A stretch of DNA of 22,962 bases from positions 1 to 22,962 of IMG/VR virus record IMGVR_UViG_3300027668_000110; one strand, written 5' to 3'. Below, one piece after another: positions 524 through 19,351 of this stretch; position 1 is the first letter of the stretch; each line of letters opens with the position of its first letter. The stretch is from a virus. The position numbers were made by a program, and so were the translations under genes. The notes beneath the pieces were generated by a model that saw only the letters and a list, made by a program, of their open reading frames with translations, was not told the DNA's origin and searched no databases.

Positions 524-2461
524 TTATTTAATTTCGCCCCAATTGGGTCCAGATTCATAGTCTACTTTGTTAGGTACTTCTAGATCTACTGCAGTTTCCA
601 TAATATGTTTTATTTTTTCAGCCTGCTCTTCTGATTCTACAGAAAAATCTAATTCATCATGTATTTGTATATGAGCCAGTAAACCGTCTTTATACAACTC
701 TACCATGGCTTTTTTAGTCATGTCGGCAGCACTACCTTGAATTAATTTATTTAAAGCTTTGTAAGTAAAAGCTCTCCTAGCTGGATTGTTATGCCAATAG
801 TTTTTCTTAGGTTTACCTTCTTTATCTTTAATAATATTTTCTTCAAAATCTTTTAATACTGGACCCATATCTTGAAGTTCTTTCATACGTTCTTCATCTT
901 CTGCAGGAACATAAGTTCCCCAATCGTCACCTCTAAGTACAGGTTCATATTTAGGAAATCTACAACGTCTACCCAATATGGTTTTAATTACACCCTTACT
1001 GGCTGCTGCATTCATTGCTTTGTTAGTAAGTTGTTTTACAAAAGGTGCATTCTCATGATATTTTTTAAATAATTCTTCAGCTTTATCTTTTGTTAAATCT
1101 AATTCATTCATAAGTTTAGCTTTACCCATACCGTAAAAAAGACCTAAGTTAATTACTTTAGCTTGTGATCTAGGTATCTCAGCCATATCTGCTACAATTT
1201 TGTGAAAGTCTGTATTAGGATCATTTTCATATGAGTCTGCAATAGTATTAACAGAAGGTAATTCAAATTGTAATGAGTAGTGTGCTACAAGTCTTGGTTC
1301 CTGTTGCGAGTAGTCAAACGTACCCCACTTGCAACCTTTGTCCGGAATAAATAAAGATCTAATTAAAGGTCCTGTTTCTGGATCCTTAGCAGGTATCTGT
1401 TGTAAATTAGGATTAGAATAAGAAAATCTTCCGGTAACTGTTCCTCCATCGTCAGATCTAATTTGATTTATATCTGCATGAATACGTCCTTTGTGTTCAT
1501 GTTTAATAATAGAGTCTATAAAAGTTGTCCTAACCTTGTTTATTTTTCTAGCTTCTGCTATCATTCTAACTACAGGATGTTTATGATTTACAAGAAAATT
1601 TTTAGTAAAGGATGGTTCGCCTGATTTCTCAGTTTTGGAATACTCTAAATTTAATTTATCAAAAAGTGGTGCAATTGATCTTGCAGCCATTAGTTGAATA
1701 TCTATTCCTGTTTCTATTTTTATTTGGTGGATTAAGTTTTCTTCTTTTAATGCTAATGCTGTCTTCAGTGTATGAGCTTTTTGAACGTCTACTTTTACAC
1801 CGTAAAACCTCATGTCAACAAGACATGGAAACAGTTCAGTCTCAAGATCAAAAACTTTTTTAAGATCTTGCTCTTTAATTATTTCTTTTAATTTTTGCCA
1901 AAGCTCTAATGTAAGAACTGCATCTTGTTCTGCGTAAGATCCAACTTCCATAGCTGGCAGTCTCCACATATCTGCTTTAGGATCTAAGCCTCTTTCTTTA
2001 GCTGCTTTATTTAACAGAGCTTCATTCTTACCTTTACTTAAATATTTCCATGACATTGAATTTAAAGTATATGAGAATCTATTCTCATCAATCAATGATG
2101 ATGCAATCATGGTATCTATTATTAAACCATTGATTTTTATACCTAAATGTCTTATCCAAGATACGTCATACATTGCATTATGAAATATTTTGGTAGCAGG
2201 AGTTTCACAAACATGTGTAAACCATTCTAAAACTTTTTTCTTTTCCATGTTAGGTCCTGCTTCATGAGCTATTGGATAATAACCTTTCCAACCTTCTACA
2301 GCTACAGCTATACCTACAACTTCACCATTACCTATGATGGCTCCTGAACCTTTACTTTTTAAATCTGGATCTCTTGTTTCTAAGTCAATAGCAATCTCTT
2401 TATGCTTTGATAGATCAGGAAATTCTGTAGGTTGTAACCACTCAGTTTGAGGTATAATCAT
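524..2461 (-). CDS. polA: Family A DNA polymerase with 3'-5' exonuclease (Leu762-type)
   Basis: This is the phage replicative DNA polymerase, 645 aa, of E. coli Pol I/T7 type but without a 5'-3' exonuclease domain. The proofreading domain comes first and looks intact: Exo I IDLET (Asp26, Glu28), Exo II HNAMYD (about 94-99) and Exo III YAEQD (176-180). The polymerase domain has TGRFSYSNPNLQQIP (about 343-357), motif A DYSQQEP (Asp383), motif B RSQAKVINLGLFYG (Arg431, Lys435, Tyr443) and motif C HDE (601-603). Aligned by eye to Pol I, the Phe762 position is Leu439 (INLG instead of INFG). Leu762 polymerases are a known, abundant class in marine virus surveys. The start overlaps the DUF3310 stop as ATGA, so the two are translationally coupled. 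Catalytic residues are all present. Confidence 0.97.
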   Translation of the reverse strand: MIIPQTEWLQPTEFPDLSKHKEIAIDLETRDPDLKSKGSGAIIGNGEVVGIAVAVEGWKGYYPIAHEAGPNMEKKKVLEWFTHVCETPATKIFHNAMYDVSWIRHLGIKINGLIIDTMIASSLIDENRFSYTLNSMSWKYLSKGKNEALLNKAAKERGLDPKADMWRLPAMEVGSYAEQDAVLTLELWQKLKEIIKEQDLKKVFDLETELFPCLVDMRFYGVKVDVQKAHTLKTALALKEENLIHQIKIETGIDIQLMAARSIAPLFDKLNLEYSKTEKSGEPSFTKNFLVNHKHPVVRMIAEARKINKVRTTFIDSIIKHEHKGRIHADINQIRSDDGGTVTGRFSYSNPNLQQIPAKDPETGPLIRSLFIPDKGCKWGTFDYSQQEPRLVAHYSLQFELPSVNTIADSYENDPNTDFHKIVADMAEIPRSQAKVINLGLFYGMGKAKLMNELDLTKDKAEELFKKYHENAPFVKQLTNKAMNAAASKGVIKTILGRRCRFPKYEPVLRGDDWGTYVPAEDEERMKELQDMGPVLKDFEENIIKDKEGKPKKNYWHNNPARRAFTYKALNKLIQGSAADMTKKAMVELYKDGLLAHIQIHDELDFSVESEEQAEKIKHIMETAVDLEVPNKVDYESGPNWGEIK

Positions 2462-2706
2462 TTTTTCTTTTTAAGGTCTTTCATTTTTAAAATTTCTAAT
2501 TCACAATAATGAATTACTTTTTCTAAATCCTGTATTCCATTTTTGTTCATGTAACGACAGACATATTTAATAACACAACCTTGAAAGAAACTCAAGTCGT
2601 TGTGTGATATAAATTCATAGGGTTGAATTTTAAAATTTTTATAATGTGATCCACCGATTTGTTTATTTTGTGGAAATGTATCTTCAAACATATCTTTATG
2701 TGTCAT
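2458..2706 (-). CDS. DUF3310-family small protein
   Basis: The 82-residue protein shows the hallmark of the DUF3310 (SaV-like) phage family: GGSHYKNFKIQPYEFI at 18-33, then FQGCVIKYVCRYMNKNG and DLEKVIHYCELEI. This matches the usual GGSHY..IQPxEFI...G.VIKYV.R...K.G..DL.K..HY pattern. The family is common in phage replication regions. It has sometimes been labelled nucleotide-kinase-like, but its biochemical role is not established. The product is close to full domain length plus a Lys-rich tail (DLKKKK). It is stitched into the replication operon by ATGA overlaps at both ends, with the UvrD-like helicase upstream and the DNA polymerase downstream, which suggests co-expression with the replisome. 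Confidence 0.9.
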   Translation of the reverse strand: MTHKDMFEDTFPQNKQIGGSHYKNFKIQPYEFISHNDLSFFQGCVIKYVCRYMNKNGIQDLEKVIHYCELEILKMKDLKKKK

Positions 2707-4136
2707 AGCTGGTATCCTTTTCTTTTTATTTTTGCTTTTAATTTATACAGGTTATTTCTTGCTCTAGTAGTTCCTACGTACCAAACTCTATGTTCTTCAT
2801 CTTGTTTGTTCTGACTCTTTTTAATTGCTTTAAGAATCTTATCTCCCATATCTAAACATAGAATTACATTATCTTCTTCTCCACCTTTTGCTGCGTGTAT
2901 AGTGGACAACCATATTCTTGCAGGTTCATTTAAATTCTCTCCGTTATCTAACATATTTTTTATATACAATTTTTCTTTTTCATCAGCTAATGTAAAAGCT
3001 TCATACCAACCTGTCATATGATCCCATTGAGGATTTTCTATATATTCATTTATATCTTTTATAACTTTGTCTTCTAATATTTTTCCTTTAGTCCACAATT
3101 CATAATTCATTGCTGCTTTGTACAAAGATACTTTTAAACTTTTACCTTTGTTGGTTTCAAAAAATAAATTTTTCTTTCTAAGTTCTTCATCTACTTTCAT
3201 AAGTCTAGATATCGTTCTTGATAAGATTAACCATTTTCCTTTGTTTAAATCTACTTGACCTAAATTAGCTATTTCAGACGATTCTCCGACAAAATCACGA
3301 GGATAATAGTTTTTTTGCTTCCTGATGCCCATAATTCTCTCAATAGGCTTCTGTGACTCTTCCTGGACCATTAAAGAGATCCTTTTTGAGTACATTAAAA
3401 CTCTTTCTTTCGCAGGTTCTTGTATAAATCTATCTACATCTGCACCAGCCCAGGCAAAAATAGCTTGGTCATCATCACCAGCCAGGTACATATCTTCTGC
3501 TTTTGTTTTTAATACATCAAATAATTTCCATTGTAGAGGTGATAAATCTTGAGCTTCATCTATAAATACAGCTTTAAAAGTTGGAAAATCTGGATCATCT
3601 TTTTTCTTAATTGTTAAATCTACAATATCATTAAAGTCATATAGTTTTTTTTTATCTTTATAGTTTTTTAAATTATCATTAATGTATTTTAAAGTAGACC
3701 ATTTAATATCTTTACCGTTGTGTTCATTTAAATCGTATTCTTCTTCTATGGTTGTGCATCTGTTAATCGATTTGTGAATTATTTGAAAATAAGGATTGTC
3801 ACAAGTTAAAAAATTTACTTCATCTTTATTATATTTATCTACGTACTTAACTTTAATATTAATTTTCTTACCAAAGTTTTCATAATGAAAAGGTTGCATA
3901 ATATCTTGTTCTTTTAATTTTAAAAAATGAAAACAAAATGCATGTAGTGTTTGAAAGTAAGGTAAGTTCTTGTCATCTGAAGGCATTCTTTTTTTAGCTT
4001 CTCCTGCTGCCTTTCTACTAAAAGCAAAGTATCCTATTTTATGTAAAGGTACACCTGTTCTAGCATAAGCTTTAGCTCTACTAATTAATTTATAAGTTTT
4101 ACCTGTTCCTGGTGGTCCATAGTATTTATAAATCAT
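2703..4136 (-). CDS. UvrD/PcrA-like superfamily 1 DNA helicase
   Basis: This is an ATP-dependent helicase that probably unwinds DNA at the phage fork or in repair. SF1 motifs appear in order: Walker A GPPGTGKT (7-14), FAFSRKAAGEAKKRM (motif Ia region, 37-51), FQTLHAF (61-67), Walker B FIDEAQD (191-197), motif III AGDDDQAIFAWAGA (219-232), motif IV LILSR (303-307), motif V STIHAAKGGE (411-420) and motif VI YVGTTRAR (453-460). At 477 aa it is much shorter than host UvrD/PcrA (about 720 aa), so accessory 1B/2B domains are reduced; in size it is closer to phage T4 Dda, although the motif III sequence is UvrD-like. ATGA overlaps couple it to the primase gene upstream and the DUF3310 gene downstream. 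Confidence 0.95.
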   Translation of the reverse strand: MIYKYYGPPGTGKTYKLISRAKAYARTGVPLHKIGYFAFSRKAAGEAKKRMPSDDKNLPYFQTLHAFCFHFLKLKEQDIMQPFHYENFGKKINIKVKYVDKYNKDEVNFLTCDNPYFQIIHKSINRCTTIEEEYDLNEHNGKDIKWSTLKYINDNLKNYKDKKKLYDFNDIVDLTIKKKDDPDFPTFKAVFIDEAQDLSPLQWKLFDVLKTKAEDMYLAGDDDQAIFAWAGADVDRFIQEPAKERVLMYSKRISLMVQEESQKPIERIMGIRKQKNYYPRDFVGESSEIANLGQVDLNKGKWLILSRTISRLMKVDEELRKKNLFFETNKGKSLKVSLYKAAMNYELWTKGKILEDKVIKDINEYIENPQWDHMTGWYEAFTLADEKEKLYIKNMLDNGENLNEPARIWLSTIHAAKGGEEDNVILCLDMGDKILKAIKKSQNKQDEEHRVWYVGTTRARNNLYKLKAKIKRKGYQL

Positions 4137-5752
4137 ATAATATCTTCTTCACTTTTAAACTCTACTGTCTCATGAACATCTTCATCCTTTTCAAAGAATT
4201 TCAAAGGTAGTCTCAGAGTTTTTAATGGAGGAAATATTTTACTCTTTGAATCCTTACCTGGAAATCTTTTACTGTGATCAAACTTAGCTTCCTCTTCTGG
4301 ATTTTTACTTGGAAATAAATCTTTAATCATTAAAGAAGTTTTAGCTGAAGACTCTTTCCACTCATAAGTTTTAATATCATCATAGAATGAAGTGAATAAA
4401 AAGTATGCATGGTCATCATCCAGTAAAGGTCTACCACTTTGAAATGAACTGTATTGTTTTGCTGCTGGTTCATTAATGTATCTATGTAAATGATTCATCA
4501 ACACATCAGATGGATTTGTACCTTCGGCTGGTTCAAGAACATCTATTTTATTTCCTTCAAATAAAGATTTTATAATTTCATGAAAGTCATTACCTTTTAT
4601 TTGAGGCGGAACTACATGAGCTTGCTCCATTATTACTGCTCTTAATTCTTTTTGACTTTCTATCTTGTGAATATTTTTAGCATGTATTTGTTTAGTTTCT
4701 CCATTTTCTTTCTCTATAGTAAAATACCATTCTGGCGTTGGTTTTATATTTAATTTTTGTAAAGCTGATAACATAGGCCATCTAGGTTTATTATCAGATA
4801 TAATTCCAAACTTTCTTTTTACACAAACTGATTTTACACATGCAGGTGCTATTAAAGGATCATTACAAGTATGTCCTTTGGTATCTTTACTCCAACTCTT
4901 TACCTTTGCATTAACATGAATGTCAGTCCAGTTACTATCAAACTCAAAATATTTTCTAGCAGCTTCTATAATTTTTCCTTGCCACTTATCTGGATATTTT
5001 TTTTTAGCAAAAACCATGTAGTTATATAAAAATCTATCTCTACCATCTTTCATTACTTCTTTAGTTAAAATTCCTAAACAAGGTGGGCCATCATCAAACT
5101 CTTTATCTCCCCCTGTCAATTCATCTTTAATTATTTTTTCATTAATTCCTTTTAGCTGTTCTTTAGTTTGAGCATTTGCAATAACAACTTTTATAAACAT
5201 ATCTAAATCCATCTCTTCACCATTTGGAAGTAATGCTCTTCTAGATTTATTATTGTAAGGTAAGTTTAAAAAGTTACCGTTTGTTTTTGCTCCATCAGCA
5301 TTTTCTCCAAGTGTAGTTTGTTTTGGAAAAATTTCTGTATTGATTGGTAGCTTGAATAAGAATAAAACTTGTTCCAAAAATTCCCTTATCTCTTTTGCCT
5401 TAACGTATTCAGTGGTGAACACATATAAATGTAGTCCACCACTTTTTGACAGGACAGGAATTATTGGGAGATTTTTCTCTTCAATAATTTTTAAATAAAA
5501 TTGTCTATCTATAGGATACTTATCTACATCAATAGCACCAAACCTTGCTTTACCTTCGTCAGTACAAGGTTGAATTCCAATAGATTTGTTTCCTTTTAAA
5601 TGTTCTTCATAGTCTATTTGTGTAACAGGAATACCAGACCATTCATGTGGGTATCTTTTTTTACCTGTTTCTGAGTCTATATAACCTTCATTGGTTTTAC
5701 ATACTCCATAATTTCTTTTTAAGCCCTCAAAATATTTTATATAATCTTTCAT
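4133..5752 (-). CDS. Archaeo-eukaryotic-type (AEP) DNA primase, TOTE-like
   Basis: This is a probable RNA/DNA primer-synthesising enzyme of the AEP (PrimPol) superfamily. The N-terminal 190 residues carry the AEP triad: FGAIDVDKYP (Asp75, Asp77), SKSGGLHLYVF (Ser104, His108) and NTEIFPKQ (Glu140). The opening YFEGLKRNYGV and the HLKGNKSIGIQP segment resemble primases of TOTE conflict systems and related phage proteins; this sub-family call is less certain. A middle region (about 210-320) has four Cys (225, 296, 305, 310) preceding a KRKFGI segment and may form a metal- or Fe-S-binding PriL/PriCT-like module. The C-terminal 200 residues have no recognisable helicase motifs, so unwinding must come from neighbours. 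An AGGA ribosome-binding site lies 5 bases before the ATG. A TTGACA-N16-TATATA pattern straddles the start. Confidence 0.85.
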   Translation of the reverse strand: MKDYIKYFEGLKRNYGVCKTNEGYIDSETGKKRYPHEWSGIPVTQIDYEEHLKGNKSIGIQPCTDEGKARFGAIDVDKYPIDRQFYLKIIEEKNLPIIPVLSKSGGLHLYVFTTEYVKAKEIREFLEQVLFLFKLPINTEIFPKQTTLGENADGAKTNGNFLNLPYNNKSRRALLPNGEEMDLDMFIKVVIANAQTKEQLKGINEKIIKDELTGGDKEFDDGPPCLGILTKEVMKDGRDRFLYNYMVFAKKKYPDKWQGKIIEAARKYFEFDSNWTDIHVNAKVKSWSKDTKGHTCNDPLIAPACVKSVCVKRKFGIISDNKPRWPMLSALQKLNIKPTPEWYFTIEKENGETKQIHAKNIHKIESQKELRAVIMEQAHVVPPQIKGNDFHEIIKSLFEGNKIDVLEPAEGTNPSDVLMNHLHRYINEPAAKQYSSFQSGRPLLDDDHAYFLFTSFYDDIKTYEWKESSAKTSLMIKDLFPSKNPEEEAKFDHSKRFPGKDSKSKIFPPLKTLRLPLKFFEKDEDVHETVEFKSEEDII

Positions 5753-5765
5753 ACAATCCTGTCAA
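5738..5765 (-). promoter_or_regulatory. TTGACA-N16-TATATA motif straddling the primase start
   Basis: On the minus strand, TTGACA (5765-5760) is followed 16 bases later by TATATA (5743-5738). The same spacing and hexamers occur at 7231-7258 and, with one change, on the plus strand at 7599-7626. It lies just after a terminator-like hairpin, where a new transcript would be expected to begin. However, the primase ATG (5752-5750) falls inside the spacer, so transcription would start about 20 bases into the gene, and no alternative in-frame start lies nearby. It may be a decoy, an operator-like copy, or coincidence. Confidence 0.35.
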
Positions 5766-5785
5766 AGTTTGTTTTTTGTATTAAA

Positions 5786-5813
5786 AGGTGGCGTTAGTCT
5801 CCCGACGCCACCT
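5786..5813 (-). terminator. Probable intrinsic terminator after the 262-aa gene
   Basis: AGGTGGCGT at 5786-5794 pairs perfectly with ACGCCACCT at 5805-5813: a 9-bp GC-rich stem with a 10-base loop in otherwise very AT-rich DNA. On the minus strand the hairpin is followed by TTTTAATA, a short U-run. It lies 25 bases past the stop of the 262-aa gene and before the primase gene, so it would end or attenuate the early transcript there. The U-run is short, so partial read-through into the primase operon is likely. Confidence 0.75.
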
Positions 5814-5814
5814 C

Positions 5815-5838
5815 CACTTGCAAGTGTCCCTAAAGGGA
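5815..5838 (-). repeat. Two adjacent short palindromes next to the terminator
   Basis: CACTTGCAAGTG (5815-5826) is a perfect 12-base palindrome. It is followed directly by TCCCTAAAGGGA (5827-5838), a 5-bp stem with a 2-base loop. They fill the whole gap between the 262-aa gene stop (5841-5839) and the terminator hairpin. They may be extra hairpins that stabilise the 3' end, or a protein-binding site. Which of these cannot be told from sequence. Confidence 0.5.
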
Positions 5839-6627
5839 TTAGATAATATCTTTTTTAGTTTTATCAGCTTCAACCTTTTCGTACTTAGGTTGAGTAGAAC
5901 CTTTAGATACTTCTCTCTGTAACTTTTGACCTGCTTGGTATAACTCAGCATCTTCAGGGCTAGACACAACATCTAACATTTTTACAAAAGAAGGCTTATA
6001 CACATGCCAGTTCTTATCTCCCCAACTCTTACCTGCTGTTTTTAATTTAAACACAGCTGTAAAAGATGCAGGTTGAAACGAACCTTTAGCGTCTACCATT
6101 CTTAAATTTGAAATCATATCATTCAAATCTCTTCCTGGAGTTAAGTTAGAAGACCTCATAGGTATTACAGCAGATCTAGATCCATTTTCTAAAATAGCTA
6201 TTGCATAGAAGTACATTGTCTTCTCTACATAGTTACCATTAGATAATCTATATCTACCACCTTTTTCCTCAACAGCATCTGCTGGTGGGTTAAGGTGTGT
6301 TCCTACTGGTGCTGCGGTACTATCTCCTCTTTCTTGCCATTCAGGGTACCTAGTTTGAAAGTGAGATACAACTATATCTAAACCTTTCTCACCGCTGACT
6401 AAACTACCAAAACTGGATGCATAAATCATTCCAGGTTGAGCGCCTTCAACGTACTTTGCACTTCTTGAATTGCATTCTGGAGATAATTGATGAAGGATTT
6501 TCAAGATAGGTGTTGACCTATCACTTGATTGCATCTCTTCAGTCCCTTTACCAGAGTCTGCTCTTAGGTTGATTGTTGATAATGCTCCTGCATCATCTTT
6601 CTTGACCATTGTACTTTGTGTACTCAT
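5839..6627 (-). CDS. Replication-module protein, possible ssDNA-binding-like
   Basis: This 262-aa protein is of uncertain family. After a disordered N-terminus (about 1-38), it has PILKILHQLSPECN (40-53), YVEGAQPGMIYA (59-70) and a beta-rich core with GLDIVVSHFQTRYPEW (82-97). Next comes a YFYAIAIL strand, then a lysine-rich end. This layout resembles phage proteins annotated as single-stranded-DNA-binding or recombination-associated, and its place between early genes and the primase fits such a role. That assignment is by general pattern only. The start is supported by AGGA five bases before the ATG. The gene is followed by tandem hairpins, so it probably ends an early transcript and may be expressed at a higher level than the primase operon. 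Confidence 0.75.
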   Translation of the reverse strand: MSTQSTMVKKDDAGALSTINLRADSGKGTEEMQSSDRSTPILKILHQLSPECNSRSAKYVEGAQPGMIYASSFGSLVSGEKGLDIVVSHFQTRYPEWQERGDSTAAPVGTHLNPPADAVEEKGGRYRLSNGNYVEKTMYFYAIAILENGSRSAVIPMRSSNLTPGRDLNDMISNLRMVDAKGSFQPASFTAVFKLKTAGKSWGDKNWHVYKPSFVKMLDVVSSPEDAELYQAGQKLQREVSKGSTQPKYEKVEADKTKKDII

Positions 6628-6655
6628 ATATATCCTATTGGGTTATCGTTTATTA

Positions 6656-7201
6656 TTACTTACTTTTTATCTTAGTTTGATTTCCATCAAACGTCCAAAA
6701 TAGATCAGCAGGAATTTCTTTACCTTTAGTATGAACTTCCTCCATCACTACTCTTAAAGTGGACGGGTGAACCTTCTCTTCTTGAGTAGGTTCATAGCCC
6801 TGTCCCTTTGCAAGGGTAGCATATTCTGCAGCCTTGGTTTCCTCGTCACGACCAAATGATACTGTAATATTATTTTTTATAATATCACCTAAGCCGTTAT
6901 CTCGAAGCCATTGTACGCACTCACCTTTTCTATCAGCTTTCATGGTGGTGCTGAAAACTTTTTTTACAGACAGTTCAGAACCATCTTGTAACTTTAAACT
7001 TTTTAGATTCATCTCTTCCATTAGTTTTGGAATAACGACTGTACTAAAATGTTTCTCGTCTTCTTTTAAATCTTTAATTCTATCTTCGTTGGATTTTATC
7101 TGTCGTTGAATAGATACTAATTTTTCAACCTCTTCAGATAGTTTTTTTGGATCTATTATATTGCTTTGATCAGGAGCATCTTGTCTTAAGTTAATTGACA
7201 T
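6656..7201 (-). CDS. Coiled-coil protein of unknown function, early/replication module
   Basis: This 181-aa protein has a predicted coiled coil from about residue 17 to 65 (charged heptad-like segment EEVEKLVSIQRQIKSNEDRI onward). A compact C-terminal region follows, with MNLKSLKLQDGSEL, ITVSFGRDEETKAAEY and FWTFDGNQTKI. I do not recognise a named family. The coil followed by a small beta-rich region is seen in several phage proteins of unknown function. The start is good: AGAGGA lies 9 bases before the ATG, and a TTGACA-N16-TATATA promoter lies just upstream. It sits 28 bases before the 262-aa gene, with which it shares a short N-terminal INLR-x-D peptide. Probably an early-expressed DNA-metabolism or host-interaction protein; this is context only. 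Confidence 0.8.
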   Translation of the reverse strand: MSINLRQDAPDQSNIIDPKKLSEEVEKLVSIQRQIKSNEDRIKDLKEDEKHFSTVVIPKLMEEMNLKSLKLQDGSELSVKKVFSTTMKADRKGECVQWLRDNGLGDIIKNNITVSFGRDEETKAAEYATLAKGQGYEPTQEEKVHPSTLRVVMEEVHTKGKEIPADLFWTFDGNQTKIKSK

Positions 7202-7230
7202 ATTATTTATTCCTCTCTTTCATACCTAGA

Positions 7231-7258
7231 TATATAGGATACTTATAAATTTTGTCAA
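7231..7258 (-). promoter_or_regulatory. Sigma70-type promoter for the 181-aa/262-aa early genes
   Basis: On the minus strand a perfect -35 TTGACA (7258-7253) and a TATATA -10 (7236-7231) are separated by 16 bases. They lie in the 59-base gap between the 112-aa gene stop (7263-7261) and the 181-aa gene start. The predicted transcript start is about 20 bases before the AGAGGA and ATG, an ideal arrangement. The -10 sits inside an imperfect inverted repeat (CCTA...TAGG), which could be an operator. Confidence 0.7.
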
Positions 7259-7260
7259 CC

Positions 7261-7599
7261 CTAGTTTTGAAAAATATTTATTTCGATCGGATAATATGTT
7301 TTTTCTTGTCTGTCCCATTTAAGAAGTTTGTATTTTCCATTAGTTATATCTGAAACAACAGAACATACGACACCAATAACTGCAGGATCACCAGATAATA
7401 ATAAATAATCTTCAACCTTATAGTCTTTTAGAAGAGTTCTAAGTTTCAAAATTAATGGACCTGGAGATAGTATAATTTGAGAGTACATAGGCAGTAGCGT
7501 CACTATGTCGCCATACTTAGAAGCCCCTAATACATTGTATTTAGGCTGCCCTGTGTCTCTATCTACAGGAATATCCTGTGTTAAATATACTTTGCTCAT
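7261..7599 (-). CDS. Conserved-looking 112-aa protein of unknown function
   Basis: This 112-aa protein begins MSKVYLTQDIPVD. It has alternating hydrophobic strands (YGDIVTLLPMYSQIILSPGP, YLLLSGDPAVIGVVCSVV) and a basic C-terminal strand region. No membrane segment, signal peptide or catalytic motif is visible, and I do not recognise the family. It is the first minus-strand gene of the left-hand module and is divergent from the SNF2 helicase gene across a 52-base control region. Such divergent first genes are often early regulators or host-takeover proteins, but no DNA-binding motif is seen. The ATG has only a weak AT-rich leader (AAAATAAAAAGTCA) and no clear Shine-Dalgarno. Confidence 0.8.
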   Translation of the reverse strand: MSKVYLTQDIPVDRDTGQPKYNVLGASKYGDIVTLLPMYSQIILSPGPLILKLRTLLKDYKVEDYLLLSGDPAVIGVVCSVVSDITNGKYKLLKWDRQEKTYYPIEINIFQN

Positions 7600-7626
7600 T
7601 GACTTTTTATTTTAACCACATATATA
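7599..7626 (+). promoter_or_regulatory. Sigma70-like promoter for the SNF2 helicase gene
   Basis: On the plus strand, TTGACT (7599-7604) and TATATA (7621-7626) are separated by 16 bases, matching 5 of 6 -35 consensus bases. The spacing and the TATATATC context equal those of the promoter at 7231-7258. The predicted start is about 20 bases before the helicase ATG at 7652. The -35 touches the first base of the divergent 112-aa gene. Confidence 0.6.
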
Positions 7627-7648
7627 TCATGTATAGAAAGAAAAGCAA
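7621..7648 (-). promoter_or_regulatory. Putative divergent promoter for the 112-aa gene, sharing the -10
   Basis: On the minus strand, TTGCTT (7648-7643; 4 of 6 consensus) is followed after 16 bases by TATATA (7626-7621). Those are the same six bases used as the plus-strand -10. Because TATATA is self-complementary, one element could serve both directions, and polymerases could not occupy both at once. The weaker -35 makes this call less certain than its plus-strand partner. Confidence 0.4.
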
Positions 7649-7651
7649 ATT

Positions 7652-9085
7652 ATGAACTATAAATTTAAAACAAAGCCTTTTGAGCATCAGCTTAAAGCAC
7701 TGGAAGAATCTTGGGACAAAGAAAACTTTGCCTATTTTATGGAGATGGGAACAGGTAAATCTAAAGTGTTATTAGATAATGCCGCTATTCTGTATGACAG
7801 AGGTGACATAAATGGTCTACTATTAATAGCACCTAAAGGTGTATATAAAAATTGGTATGACTCAGAAATTCCTATTCACTTACCAGATCATATAGAAAAA
7901 AAAGTAGTTCTGTGGAAGACTACAGATAAAACAATTAAACAAAAAAAGATTTTAAATACTTTGTTTGAAACTGGAACTGACTTTCATATTTTAATTATGA
8001 ATGTAGAAACATTTTCTACAGGTGATGGTGCAGCATTTGCAGCTAAATTTTTATCTTGTCACAAAGCAATGATTGCAATTGATGAGTCTACAACTATTAA
8101 AACTCCAACATCAAATAGAACTAAAAATATTTTAGCTTTAAGAGGTGAGGCAAAGTATAGAAGAATTTTAACTGGATCTCCGGTTACTAAATCTCCATTA
8201 GATTTATTTAGTCAATGTGCCTTTCTTGATCCATGGCTCCTGGGGCATGATTCTTACTACACGTTTCGATCTAGATATGCCAACATGAGGAAGATAGAAG
8301 TTAATGGTAGAAGAATAGAAATTGTTACAGGCTACGTGAACCTGGGTGAACTGTCTGATAAAATAAAACCTTTCTCTAACAGAATATTAAAAGAAGATTG
8401 TTTAGATCTTCCAGAAAAAACTTTTGTTAAACATTATGTTGAGTTAACTAAAGAACAAAAAACTGTTTACCAACAGATGAAGAAAGAAGCAGTAGCTTTT
8501 TTAGAAGGTAAAATGCAATCTACAGCAACCGTTATGACTCAGTTGATGAGATTACATCAAATTACTTGTGGTCATTTTACTTCTGATGATGGTGTTATTA
8601 AAGATTTACCTTGTAGTAGGTTAAATGAATTGATGAGTATCTTAGAAAAAATAGAAGGTAAAACTATTATCTGGTCTCATTACACACATGATGTAAAAAG
8701 AATAATTAAAGAGATAAAAAAAGTATATGGTGATGACTCTGTAGTAGATTATTATGGTGCAACAGACACAGATTCAAGGTCAGCTAATATAAAGAAATTT
8801 CAAACAGATGACAACTGTAGATTTTTTGTAGGAACTACACATACCGGCGGATATGGTATCACATTAACTGCAGGAAGTAACATGGTTTATTTTTCTAATG
8901 GTTATGATCTTGAGAAACGTCAACAGTCAGAAGCTAGAATTGATCGTATAGGTCAAACTAAAAAGATGACTTATATTGATATCATGGCCCAGGATACTAT
9001 TGATGAAAGAATTGTTAAAGCTTTACGTAATAAAGTTAATATTGCTAATGCAATTATGGATGAAGATTTTAAAGAGTGGATCTAA
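7652..9085 (+). CDS. SNF2-family (SF2) DNA helicase/translocase
   Basis: This is a compact phage SNF2-like ATPase of 477 aa, likely a double-stranded-DNA translocase acting in replication, recombination or displacement of bound proteins. Motifs appear in order: FEHQLKAL (Q-type motif, 10-17), Walker A EMGTGKS (31-37), IAPKGVYKNW (motif Ia region), Walker B IDES (143-146, DEST in place of DEAH), LTGSP (motif III, 173-177) and the C-terminal lobe with TIIWSHYTH (338-346), GGYGITLTAGSNMVYF (motif V) and QQSEARIDRIGQ (motif VI, 424-435). No extra nuclease or chromatin-reader domains are present. It is the only plus-strand gene in the window, driven from the divergent region. Its stop overlaps the end of the convergent 63-aa gene by four bases. 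Confidence 0.95.
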   Translation: MNYKFKTKPFEHQLKALEESWDKENFAYFMEMGTGKSKVLLDNAAILYDRGDINGLLLIAPKGVYKNWYDSEIPIHLPDHIEKKVVLWKTTDKTIKQKKILNTLFETGTDFHILIMNVETFSTGDGAAFAAKFLSCHKAMIAIDESTTIKTPTSNRTKNILALRGEAKYRRILTGSPVTKSPLDLFSQCAFLDPWLLGHDSYYTFRSRYANMRKIEVNGRRIEIVTGYVNLGELSDKIKPFSNRILKEDCLDLPEKTFVKHYVELTKEQKTVYQQMKKEAVAFLEGKMQSTATVMTQLMRLHQITCGHFTSDDGVIKDLPCSRLNELMSILEKIEGKTIIWSHYTHDVKRIIKEIKKVYGDDSVVDYYGATDTDSRSANIKKFQTDDNCRFFVGTTHTGGYGITLTAGSNMVYFSNGYDLEKRQQSEARIDRIGQTKKMTYIDIMAQDTIDERIVKALRNKVNIANAIMDEDFKEWI

Positions 9086-17633: not shown

Positions 17634-17790
17634 TAAACCACGTAAACCTTTCTTGATCTTGTTTCTGTTCGTTTAAAAACGTTGAATTTAATTGTTCTAC
17701 TATCAAAGCAATTGATCTGTTAATTTGTTTTTGATTAGAAATATCATATTCTTCTTTAGGCTCGGGTAATCTAATTACTATTTTAGCCAT
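17626..17790 (-). CDS. 54-aa helical protein in the virion operon
   Basis: This short gene runs from ATG at 17790-17788 to TAA at 17628-17626. The 54-residue product begins MAKIVIRLPEPKEEYDISNQ and continues with an amphipathic helix (QINRSIALIVEQLNSTFLNE) and a polar end (QKQDQERFTWFNG). It overlaps the end of the 522-aa gene and the start of the 109-aa gene by 8 bases each. That arrangement, with the clean helical composition, is strong evidence that it is translated. The peptide resembles small proteins next to tail genes in other marine phages, with the 'LPEP..EYD..NQ.Q..R.I' pattern. Function is unknown; a chaperone or small tail-fibre-attachment role is possible. Confidence 0.7.
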   Translation of the reverse strand: MAKIVIRLPEPKEEYDISNQKQINRSIALIVEQLNSTFLNEQKQDQERFTWFNG

Positions 17791-19351
17791 TTTTTCCTAC
17801 CAAATAGCATAATGGTTCTAATATTTTTCTATATAATCTACCTAGTAAATGTACCTTGCCTCTTGCTTCTTGTCTAATATCGATGGTTCTATGTACTGCA
17901 ATGTGTTCTAATATTTTCTTAACTACTTTATTTGTTTTAGATATTTTAATTAATGGTAAGAATATTTTATGGTATCCTATTTGATATTCTGGTGCCATGT
18001 CTTTAGAATGTTTTAACCAAATTTTATTTCTAAATGATCCAAAGCCATATGACTCGTTCATCATGGTACATACTATTTTACCACCGCCGCCTGAATCGTT
18101 ACCACCACCGCCGCCACCTGATCCAGGTCGTGTAGTTGTTCCAGTTTGATAAGTAGGTGTTGAAGGTTGCATTTGATAATCACCTAAATTACCACTACCT
18201 GTTCCATAGTTTGAAGGATTTGTTATACTTCCTTGACCTGCAGGGCCACCTTGACCTGTCGAATTGTAACCGTTTCCGGGATCATATCCACCACCAGAAT
18301 AATCATTTTGATTTGTTCCTCCAGTAATAGGTCCAAGTCCAACAAAATCATTTTGATTTGTTCCTCCAGTAATAGGTCCAAGTCCAACAAAATCATTTTG
18401 ATTTGTTCCTCCAGTAATAGGTCCAAGTCCATCAAAATCATTTAAATTTGTTCCTCCAGTTATTATTGGATCATTTCCATATCCTGAACCATAACCTTGA
18501 CCAAAAGAAGCTCCATACTGTGGAGCAGTTAAAGTAAAAGCACTTGGTGCATTCATACCAGAAAAACTTGGCATAGAATCAATTTGATTTAAAGGATCAA
18601 AGCTATCTATATCCTCATCGCTATCATCTTCACCTTCTAAAGCTTCTTTCATTTTTTGATTTATAATTTTTTGAGATATGTAATCAGGATTTTTTGCTAG
18701 AGATTTGTTATCAAAAACCATATCTGCTTTAGCTTTTGCACCAAAGAAACTTGCTTCTGCTGCATCAAGAGCCGCTAACTTTGCTGCTTTTTGTTTGGGG
18801 TCTTTCATATTTTTTTCAATTACATCTCTTCTTTTATCAAAAGTTTTTTTAGTTACTTTAGAAGCATTGTAACCTGCCATAATATTTGACCCATCTGCTT
18901 TATTTATATCTCCACCATCCGATACAAATTGTCCGATATCGTTTAATTGCATTCCTGCACCTATTAATTCATTATTTAAAATAGCTGTTTGATTGACTGG
19001 AAGTCTATCAGCTAACATTTTTATTCCAGGAATTTTTCCCATTAAAGATTCAAGTCCTGATGTTTGTTCAACCCCTTGATAATCAGGAGTTCCAAGTAAA
19101 CTGTCATTGATAGCATTTTGATATGGTCTAGTTAAATAATTAGAATTAGAATTAGAATTATAAACATTATTTCCACCGCCACCGCCACCGCCACCACCAC
19201 CACTAGGTAATGTTGGAGCATTAGGATTTTGAGGTGTAACAGGAGTTGGAGTTGGAGTAGGGGTTGGAGTAGTGGTTCCTGGTGCTTGAGTTATATCAGG
19301 CATTCCCTGATTTAAATACTCCAGTGCTAAGTCATATAAAGTTTTTGCCAT
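17783..19351 (-). CDS. Modular low-complexity virion protein with poly-Gly linkers and conserved C-terminal domain
   Basis: This 522-aa mosaic protein has several parts: a short helical N-terminus (1-20), a Thr-Pro repeat (27-37), ten glycines (51-60) and a charged helical core (about 100-240). An acidic stretch follows (EGEDDSDEDIDS, 239-250), then 15-residue tandem repeats of GLGPITGGTNQNDFV type (about 295-350). The protein continues with Gly/Ser/Thr-rich linkers (to about 424) and a final domain of about 98 residues. The final domain opens with KIVCTMMNESYGFGSFRN (425-442), contains YHKIFLPLIKI, HIAVHRTIDIR and LGRLYRKILEPLCYLVGK, and carries two Cys and four His residues. The Gly-linker plus CTxMNE domain recurs at the C-termini of marine phage proteins; its function is undescribed as far as I know. 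Fibre, adhesin or internal protein are all open. Confidence 0.8.
   Translation of the reverse strand: MAKTLYDLALEYLNQGMPDITQAPGTTTPTPTPTPTPVTPQNPNAPTLPSGGGGGGGGGGNNVYNSNSNSNYLTRPYQNAINDSLLGTPDYQGVEQTSGLESLMGKIPGIKMLADRLPVNQTAILNNELIGAGMQLNDIGQFVSDGGDINKADGSNIMAGYNASKVTKKTFDKRRDVIEKNMKDPKQKAAKLAALDAAEASFFGAKAKADMVFDNKSLAKNPDYISQKIINQKMKEALEGEDDSDEDIDSFDPLNQIDSMPSFSGMNAPSAFTLTAPQYGASFGQGYGSGYGNDPIITGGTNLNDFDGLGPITGGTNQNDFVGLGPITGGTNQNDFVGLGPITGGTNQNDYSGGGYDPGNGYNSTGQGGPAGQGSITNPSNYGTGSGNLGDYQMQPSTPTYQTGTTTRPGSGGGGGGNDSGGGGKIVCTMMNESYGFGSFRNKIWLKHSKDMAPEYQIGYHKIFLPLIKISKTNKVVKKILEHIAVHRTIDIRQEARGKVHLLGRLYRKILEPLCYLVGKNG
18301..18460 (-). repeat. 45-bp in-frame tandem repeat
   Basis: Copies begin at 18301, 18346, 18391 and 18436, exactly 45 bases apart. 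The first two units are identical or nearly so, the third differs at about one base near its end, and the fourth matches for about 25 bases with changes. Each unit codes for 15 residues (GLGPITGGTNQNDFV type), so copy-number change would keep the reading frame. The near identity indicates recent duplication, and copies could vary among relatives. Confidence 0.95.
19136..19201 (-). repeat. Simple-sequence tracts coding Ser-Asn repeat and Gly10
   Basis: At 19172-19201 a run of GGT/GGC codons encodes ten glycines. Just downstream in the gene (19136-19160) a TTAGAA-type hexamer repeat encodes alternating Ser-Asn. Another short repeat at about 19235-19272 encodes Thr-Pro. All lengths are multiples of three, so slippage would change linker length without breaking the frame. 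Confidence 0.8.

Follow-up and report, generated by a model that had tools for sequence, protein, structure and literature searches.

Ring helicases are the unwinding enzymes of cellular replisomes and of the best-studied phage replisomes. A different equipment is known from virioplankton, where UvrD-like helicases that occur beside a family A DNA polymerase (PolA) of the Leu762 Group II type always come with SNF2, and where this Leu762/UvrD/SNF2 arrangement ranked second in abundance in a Chesapeake Bay virome, taking up 16.4% of all reads that the PolA contigs recruited (Nasko et al., 2018, PMC6302109). The available part of that study treats the DnaG primase; an AEP primase, gp32-, gp33- and gp34-like genes, and an exclusion of SF3 or DnaB helicases are not described in it. 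The published ideas on how the fork is opened in such phages are slow replication of a temperate type or strand displacement by PolA, which was itself proposed as the strand separator in SNF2-carrying viruses (Keown et al., 2022, PMC9069017). The genomes of HTVC023P-type pelagiphages have also been published, and helicases and polymerase are among their core genes (PMC9599517). Here, we analyzed the replication module of the virus record IMGVR_UViG_3300027668_000110. The window is the whole record of 22,962 bases, which is a fragment and not a complete virus genome. On this single contig it carries the PolA type and both helicase types of the virioplankton group, together with a stand-alone AEP primase. 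Comparison of this module with those of its relatives suggests that the UvrD-like protein, a helicase of superfamily 1 (SF1), probably fills the place of the fork helicase.

Primase and helicase types on a shared core

The preliminary description of this locus had reported a set of AEP primase, UvrD-like helicase, SNF2 protein and Leu762 PolA, and had pointed to the lack of any helicase of the DnaB or T7 gp4 type. The set is present at the positions given there with its catalytic motifs intact, and the lack of a ring helicase extends to the relatives of the window. The DnaB_C profile had no match in the window, itself a fragment, and none in 12 complete named relatives and 8 long related contigs; in phage T7, which served as the positive control, it detected gp4 at 6.8e-20. 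AAA_25, the profile that also detects gp4, and the TOPRIM_2 primase profile were above the cut-off in T7 alone and in none of the complete relatives. An SF3 helicase (superfamily 3, DUF5906) was likewise absent from the complete relatives, and a DnaC-like loader did not exceed the cut-off in any of them, a loader of another fold being still conceivable. In three complete genomes, the UvrD-like gene was the only open reading frame (ORF) with a Walker A motif besides those of virion and peptidase proteins, as judged by a pattern that misses SNF2 and is of incomplete sensitivity. No candidate for a ring helicase hidden among the unknown genes emerged from the DnaB_C and AAA_25 scans or from the Walker A scan of the three complete genomes, and this possibility was rejected. 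The set had also been called unusual and its mode of replication distinct. Both words need softening: the linkage of Leu762 PolA, UvrD and SNF2 is published and ranks second in abundance in a virome (PMC6302109).

The genes of the set are closely tied to each other. Relatives of the primase were found in 24 of 50,697 phage records, and the same 24 all carry a UvrD relative. The marine co-occurrence set consisted of 80 contigs found by their primase, and genes were counted where the flanking DNA sufficed. On these contigs co-occurrence was complete, as had been proposed as a check, for UvrD (54/54), SNF2 (20/20) and PolA (14/14), and also for gp34 (53/53) and gp33 (44/44). The gp32-, gp33- and gp34-like genes are conserved members of the module that the preliminary description had not listed. 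To judge from gene content, the AEP primase and the UvrD-like helicase are always inherited together on a shared core of SNF2, gp32-, gp33- and gp34-like genes and PolA.

Exchange of the primase and helicase part was surveyed on 50 contigs of at least 35 kb, which were picked by gp34 and not by helicase or primase. The AEP-TOTE primase was present on 38 of them and UvrD on 37, all within those 38; the lone contig with the primase and no UvrD (G034) is cut, and its primase lies at the very end. Ten of the 50 contigs carried a primase-SF3 fusion (DUF5906), with no overlap with AEP or UvrD. Fisher tests gave 1e-10 and 6e-9, uncorrected for kinship. DnaB_C was found on one contig (G036, locus L169), which has neither AEP nor SF3, and one further contig (G043, locus L183) had none of the four tested families; it may be incomplete or represent a fourth type.

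Mapped on the SNF2 protein tree, the primase/helicase type requires five changes, and at least three changes of the SF3 label are forced by well-supported branches; the long-branch rows L156 and L169 make the tree unsure in parts. Phages YuA, phiVC8 and Pam3 have in common with the window SNF2, the genes for gp33- and gp34-like proteins and a polymerase of family A; they lack a UvrD-like gene, and an SF3 (DUF5906) helicase forms one protein with their primase. Because AEP with UvrD, the SF3 fusion and DnaB never occur together on the same core, the UvrD-like protein would occupy the slot of the replicative helicase.

Proteins of the module

Motifs I (GPPGTGKT), II (DEAQD), III (GDDDQAI), V (TIHAAKG) and VI (RVWYVGTTRA) are intact in the UvrD-like protein, and its closest solved relatives are PcrA, Rep and UvrD, with PcrA as the best match. 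As a helicase of the SF1A type it is expected to unwind in the 3'-5' direction. This polarity is common to SF3 helicases and UvrD-type SF1A helicases, which fits the substitution of one by the other. The stretch from motif III to motif V measures 192 residues, compared to about 313 in PcrA (~120 shorter), whereas the length from motif I to motif III is normal; the 2B region is therefore reduced and falls short of a full-length 2B. In Escherichia coli Rep, deletion of 2B converts the inactive monomer to an active helicase (PMC13238157), and by analogy the shortened UvrD-like protein may work without dimerisation.

The primase is composed of an AEP domain, a PriCT-like Cys cluster and a C-terminal domain. 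Residues D75 and D77 of motif I and H108 of motif II were invariant in 43 sequences, the cysteines C225, C296, C305 and C310 are conserved, and the relative in phage SH-Ab 15497 contains a PriCT-1 domain. The structure model (pLDDT 89) matched the fold of the CAPP Prim-Pol 7nqd with an E-value of 3.8e-11. CAPP Prim-Pol begins primer synthesis de novo (PMC10345425). The fold and motifs of its catalytic domain are shared by the window primase, but the C-terminal part and the genomic context differ, and the NCBIfam CAPP model scored 41.7 against a cut-off of 200 bits. No Walker A motif was found among 90 relatives of the primase, so that the helicase is not fused to it, in line with what had been described. 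A helicase hidden in the C-terminus of the primase was ruled out, as neither the Walker A scan of the relatives nor the structure model revealed one.

The gp34-like protein is a candidate OB-fold protein for binding single-stranded DNA, a putative role that is taken from its structure model (pLDDT 85.8). RPA was the first fold match, and Stn1, Cdc13 and SSB (single-stranded DNA-binding protein) ranked lower, all of them weak (E 1e-3 at best, TM about 0.2). Many relatives of gp34 have SSB-like tips, with a PF end in 80 of 204 and an aromatic last residue in 145 of 204, and a PF end was not found among the UvrD, PolA, SNF2, gp33, gp32 and DUF3310 proteins. The gp34 of the window ends instead in KKDII, and the primase, an unrelated protein, in EEDII; no other ORF of the window ends in (D/E/N)I(I/V). 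Similar pairs of gp34 and primase tips were seen in Pelagibacter phage HTVC027P (QDIV and ENIV) and in other relatives (ESNY/ESNY, ESNF/ESNF and APF/SPF). Within genomes, the last four residues of both proteins had 1.74 identities compared to 0.78 after permutation (174 distinct pairs), and the excess held for 22 primase clusters at 50% (p<5e-5). We speak of a shared tip; the claim of a proven co-evolution was dropped, because the independent-pair tests are underpowered. A parallel exists in T7, where gp2.5 ends in DGDF and gp4 in DTDF. These two tails dock on the T7 polymerase, and by analogy the shared tip of gp34 and primase likely points to a common docking partner. Phages R5C and HTVC023P depart from this pattern, and a classical SSB is encoded besides gp34 in SH-Ab-type phages; gp34 therefore stays a candidate SSB. 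The additional SSB of SH-Ab 15497, PMBT28 and K21lambda1 has the tip DDDIPF or DDDLPF.

Motif B of PolA reads RSQAKVINLGLFYG and has a Leu aligned to position 762 of the E. coli enzyme. A 3'-5' exonuclease domain is present and a 5'-3' nuclease domain is absent. R5C, Pan1 and R26L have the same module with a Phe762 polymerase, and Leu762 is thus not strictly tied to it. The DUF3310 gene between UvrD and PolA had been suspected to be part of the machine on account of its ATGA overlaps on both sides. The overlaps are real, but this suspicion did not hold: both are preserved in 15 of 61 marine loci, other genes intervene in HTVC027P, and the gene is missing in 88 of the 96 gp34-anchored loci where both UvrD and PolA are present, by which DUF3310 was ruled out as a core replisome part. 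The family matches residues 122-184, the C-terminal part, of T7 gp1.7, which is annotated as a nucleotide kinase, and judging by this and its distribution DUF3310 more probably serves nucleotide metabolism and travels as a passenger with the marine lineage.

The proposed fork and other explanations

In the fork that we propose, the UvrD-like protein would move 3'-5' on the leading-strand template ahead of PolA, and its shortened 2B region would release it from the usual 2B autoinhibition. The single strand laid bare in this way would be covered by the gp34-like protein. Lagging-strand fragments would be initiated by the AEP primase, which the C-terminal tip peptide also present on gp34 would tether to the fork, while SNF2, as a motor with an accessory role, would run along the duplex. 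The primase/helicase part would be swapped between AEP with UvrD, the primase-SF3 fusion and DnaB, and the remainder would stay constant. This whole proposal, with the UvrD-like protein as the only fork helicase of the module, draws on sequence comparison, and we regard its chances of being right or wrong as evenly balanced. A broader statement is tentative and carries somewhat more doubt than belief: there may be a large and abundant class of phages, marine and other, that copy their double-stranded genomes with a non-ring, UvrD-type (3'-5') SF1A enzyme as sole fork helicase; its partners would be an AEP primase and an OB-fold protein, both docked through a shared C-terminal tip, and this cassette would exchange with SF3 fusions and DnaB on a constant core of SNF2, gp32-34 and PolA.

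Several points weigh against the UvrD-like protein as fork helicase. UvrD-type enzymes usually have poor processivity and a role in repair. YuA-type phages have an SF1 (Dda-like) helicase besides the SF3 fusion, and an SF1 enzyme can thus be accessory there. The number of independent contrasts on the SNF2 tree is about 2-4, which does not suffice for a sign test, and the co-variation of the tips was not significant with 5 clusters at 40%, nor by the independent-pair tests with their low power. The compatibility of a missing phage ring helicase with the use of the host DnaB, the host genes induced on infection and the strand displacement by some polymerases belong on the same side of the balance, and are given below with the explanations that they concern.

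Host DnaB is used by many phages. If it were recruited to the phage fork, the UvrD-like protein and SNF2 would be accessory motors that clear proteins and restart forks, like Rep and UvrD of E. coli. Accessory function is typical of UvrD-family helicases (PMC6158625), and host dnaE, dnaN, dnaQ, dnaX and dnaG are induced in HTVC027P infection, but dnaB is unmentioned in the text of that report (PMC12753301). A mutual exclusion with SF3 and DnaB would be unexpected for an accessory factor, and the DnaC-like loader that such recruitment might employ was not seen above the cut-off in the complete relatives, where one of another fold is possible. Taken together, we consider recruitment of the host enzyme unlikely, though it deserves to be kept in mind. 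It is rather improbable that PolA splits the strands by strand displacement and that SNF2 and UvrD merely help. Some viral PolAs from SNF2-carrying contigs do displace strands in vitro, among them two of five active Leu762 enzymes, and some Leu762 PolAs do so unaided, but the activity was observed at high enzyme concentration (PMC9069017) and the occurrence of UvrD, SF3 and DnaB one at a time is left unexplained.

SNF2 could be the main unwinding motor, with UvrD serving recombination and repair. With 2405 phage records it is more widespread than any other motor of the module, yet it also stands beside SF3 fusions and beside DnaB (locus L169 on contig G036) and does not replace them. The best solved relatives of the SNF2 protein are INO80 and Sulfolobus SNF2/Rad54; the solved relatives are remodellers, as in the case of INO80, and the family is not known to separate strands (PMC9069017), which makes this role very unlikely. 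Hardly credible is a conflict cassette of the TOTE or Gabija type in place of a replisome. It is suggested by the name of the Pfam primase domain, AEP-TOTE, and by PADLOC, in which GajB models match UvrD and ZorD models match SNF2, but these matches reflect shared helicase folds only. The AEP domain is the sole part that the TOTE conflict system has in common with the module, a partner nuclease gene was not seen in the window, the operon includes the only DNA polymerase, the genes are conserved in several phage lineages, and helicases and polymerase belong to the core of HTVC023P-type phages (PMC9599517).

Gene layout, relatives and comparison with known systems

The features of the module are listed in Table 1. 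On the minus strand, from 7599 to 524, the order is gp32-like, gp33-like, gp34-like, AEP primase, UvrD-like, DUF3310 and PolA. Four-base ATGA overlaps join primase and UvrD (4133-4136), UvrD and DUF3310 (2703-2706), and DUF3310 and PolA (2458-2461). The 52-base gap that separates SNF2 from this operon is a probable promoter region. Across the marine lineage SNF2 keeps its divergent orientation, while in SH-Ab-type phages it is co-directional with the operon. The remainder of the window holds mostly virion-like genes, as deduced from synteny with HTVC027P. Tandem 45-base repeats are present at 18287-18463 within an ORF on the minus strand (17783-19351), a probable tail or virion gene, whose C-terminal part shifts in character past a glycine-rich stretch and may be frameshifted.

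Table 1. Replication genes of the window and the adjoining SNF2 gene, with the matches on which the assignments are based.
Feature	Position	Strand	Evidence
Family A DNA polymerase, Leu762 type	524..2461	-	Pfam DNA_pol_A 1.8e-68, DNA_pol_A_exo1 3.1e-15
DUF3310 protein	2458..2706	-	PF11753 2.6e-9
UvrD-like SF1A helicase, shortened 2B region, candidate fork helicase	2703..4136	-	UvrD N PF00580 1.5e-27, UvrD_C 8.8e-14
Stand-alone AEP/Prim-Pol primase	4133..5752	-	AEP-TOTE PF22548 3.1e-14, phrog_21866 'primase' 1e-193
Pam3 gp34-like, candidate OB-fold ssDNA-binding protein	5839..6627	-	PF23977 3.4e-38
Pam3 gp33-like conserved module protein	6656..7201	-	PF23984 1.9e-25
Pam3 gp32-like conserved module protein	7261..7599	-	PF23992 7.8e-28
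Divergent intergenic gap, 52 bases, between SNF2 gene and replication operon	7600..7651		gene starts 7599(-) and 7652(+)
Minimal SNF2-type SF2 ATPase, transcribed divergently	7652..9085	+	PF00176 1.3e-23, Helicase_C PF00271 6.3e-9

The closest complete genome is that of Pelagibacter phage HTVC027P (MN698241), which is syntenic, has the same divergent SNF2, and groups with the window in the SNF2 tree. The identities are 72.5% for PolA (gp10), 67% for SNF2 (gp87), 61% for UvrD and 45.5% for the primase. HTVC027P differs from the window in an additional gene that separates primase from UvrD and in two that lie between DUF3310 and PolA. The window has the homologous PolA, the DEAD/DEAH (SNF2) helicase and the primase of HTVC023P-type phages in conserved order, and by these sequence features it belongs with the HTVC023P-type pelagiphages, marine phages of the kind that infects SAR11, and carries their replication module. 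The same gene set is present in 023Pt_psg01, HTVC023P, the lake phage DSL-LC04 and ct3Et533. All seven core genes recur, in a rearranged form, in phages of Acinetobacter, Klebsiella, Salmonella and Providencia akin to SH-Ab 15497, and in the R5C/R26L/Pan1 group, which has deazaguanine genes. In SH-Ab 15497, PMBT28 and K21lambda1, which have the module of AEP, UvrD, SNF2 and gp32-34, an adenylosuccinate synthetase gene adjoins PolA, and the annotation of K21lambda1 names the 2-aminoadenine type.

In a literature search, mostly outside subscription journals, no paper was found on the pairing of AEP with UvrD, on the exclusion of SF3 and DnaB, or on the shared tip. As far as searched, the exchange of AEP with UvrD, SF3 fusion and DnaB on a shared core is new, while the module itself is known and abundant. 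The strict exchange yields a specific and testable candidate for the fork helicase, together with gp34 and primase as partners with a shared docking tip, and, as the module is also present in phages with 2-aminoadenine or deazaguanine genes, knowing the fork helicase would inform on several lineages at once.

For single elements of the proposed machine there are precedents, though not for their combination. SF1A helicases act in rolling-circle replication, by way of the host UvrD in CTXphi (PMC4439123) and together with a helicase processivity factor in an integrative element (PMC3542172), both according to the available parts of these reports. T7 likewise has a family A polymerase and an SSB and a primase with a shared acidic, aromatic C-terminal tip, but its TOPRIM primase is fused to a DnaB-type ring helicase, and both of these are absent from the 12 complete relatives. 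In the herpesvirus UL5/UL52/UL8 complex, a non-ring SF1 helicase and an AEP-type primase work at the fork, as is proposed here, with the difference that UL5 moves 5'-3' (PMC8187027) and the UvrD-like SF1A protein of the phage would be expected to move 3'-5'.

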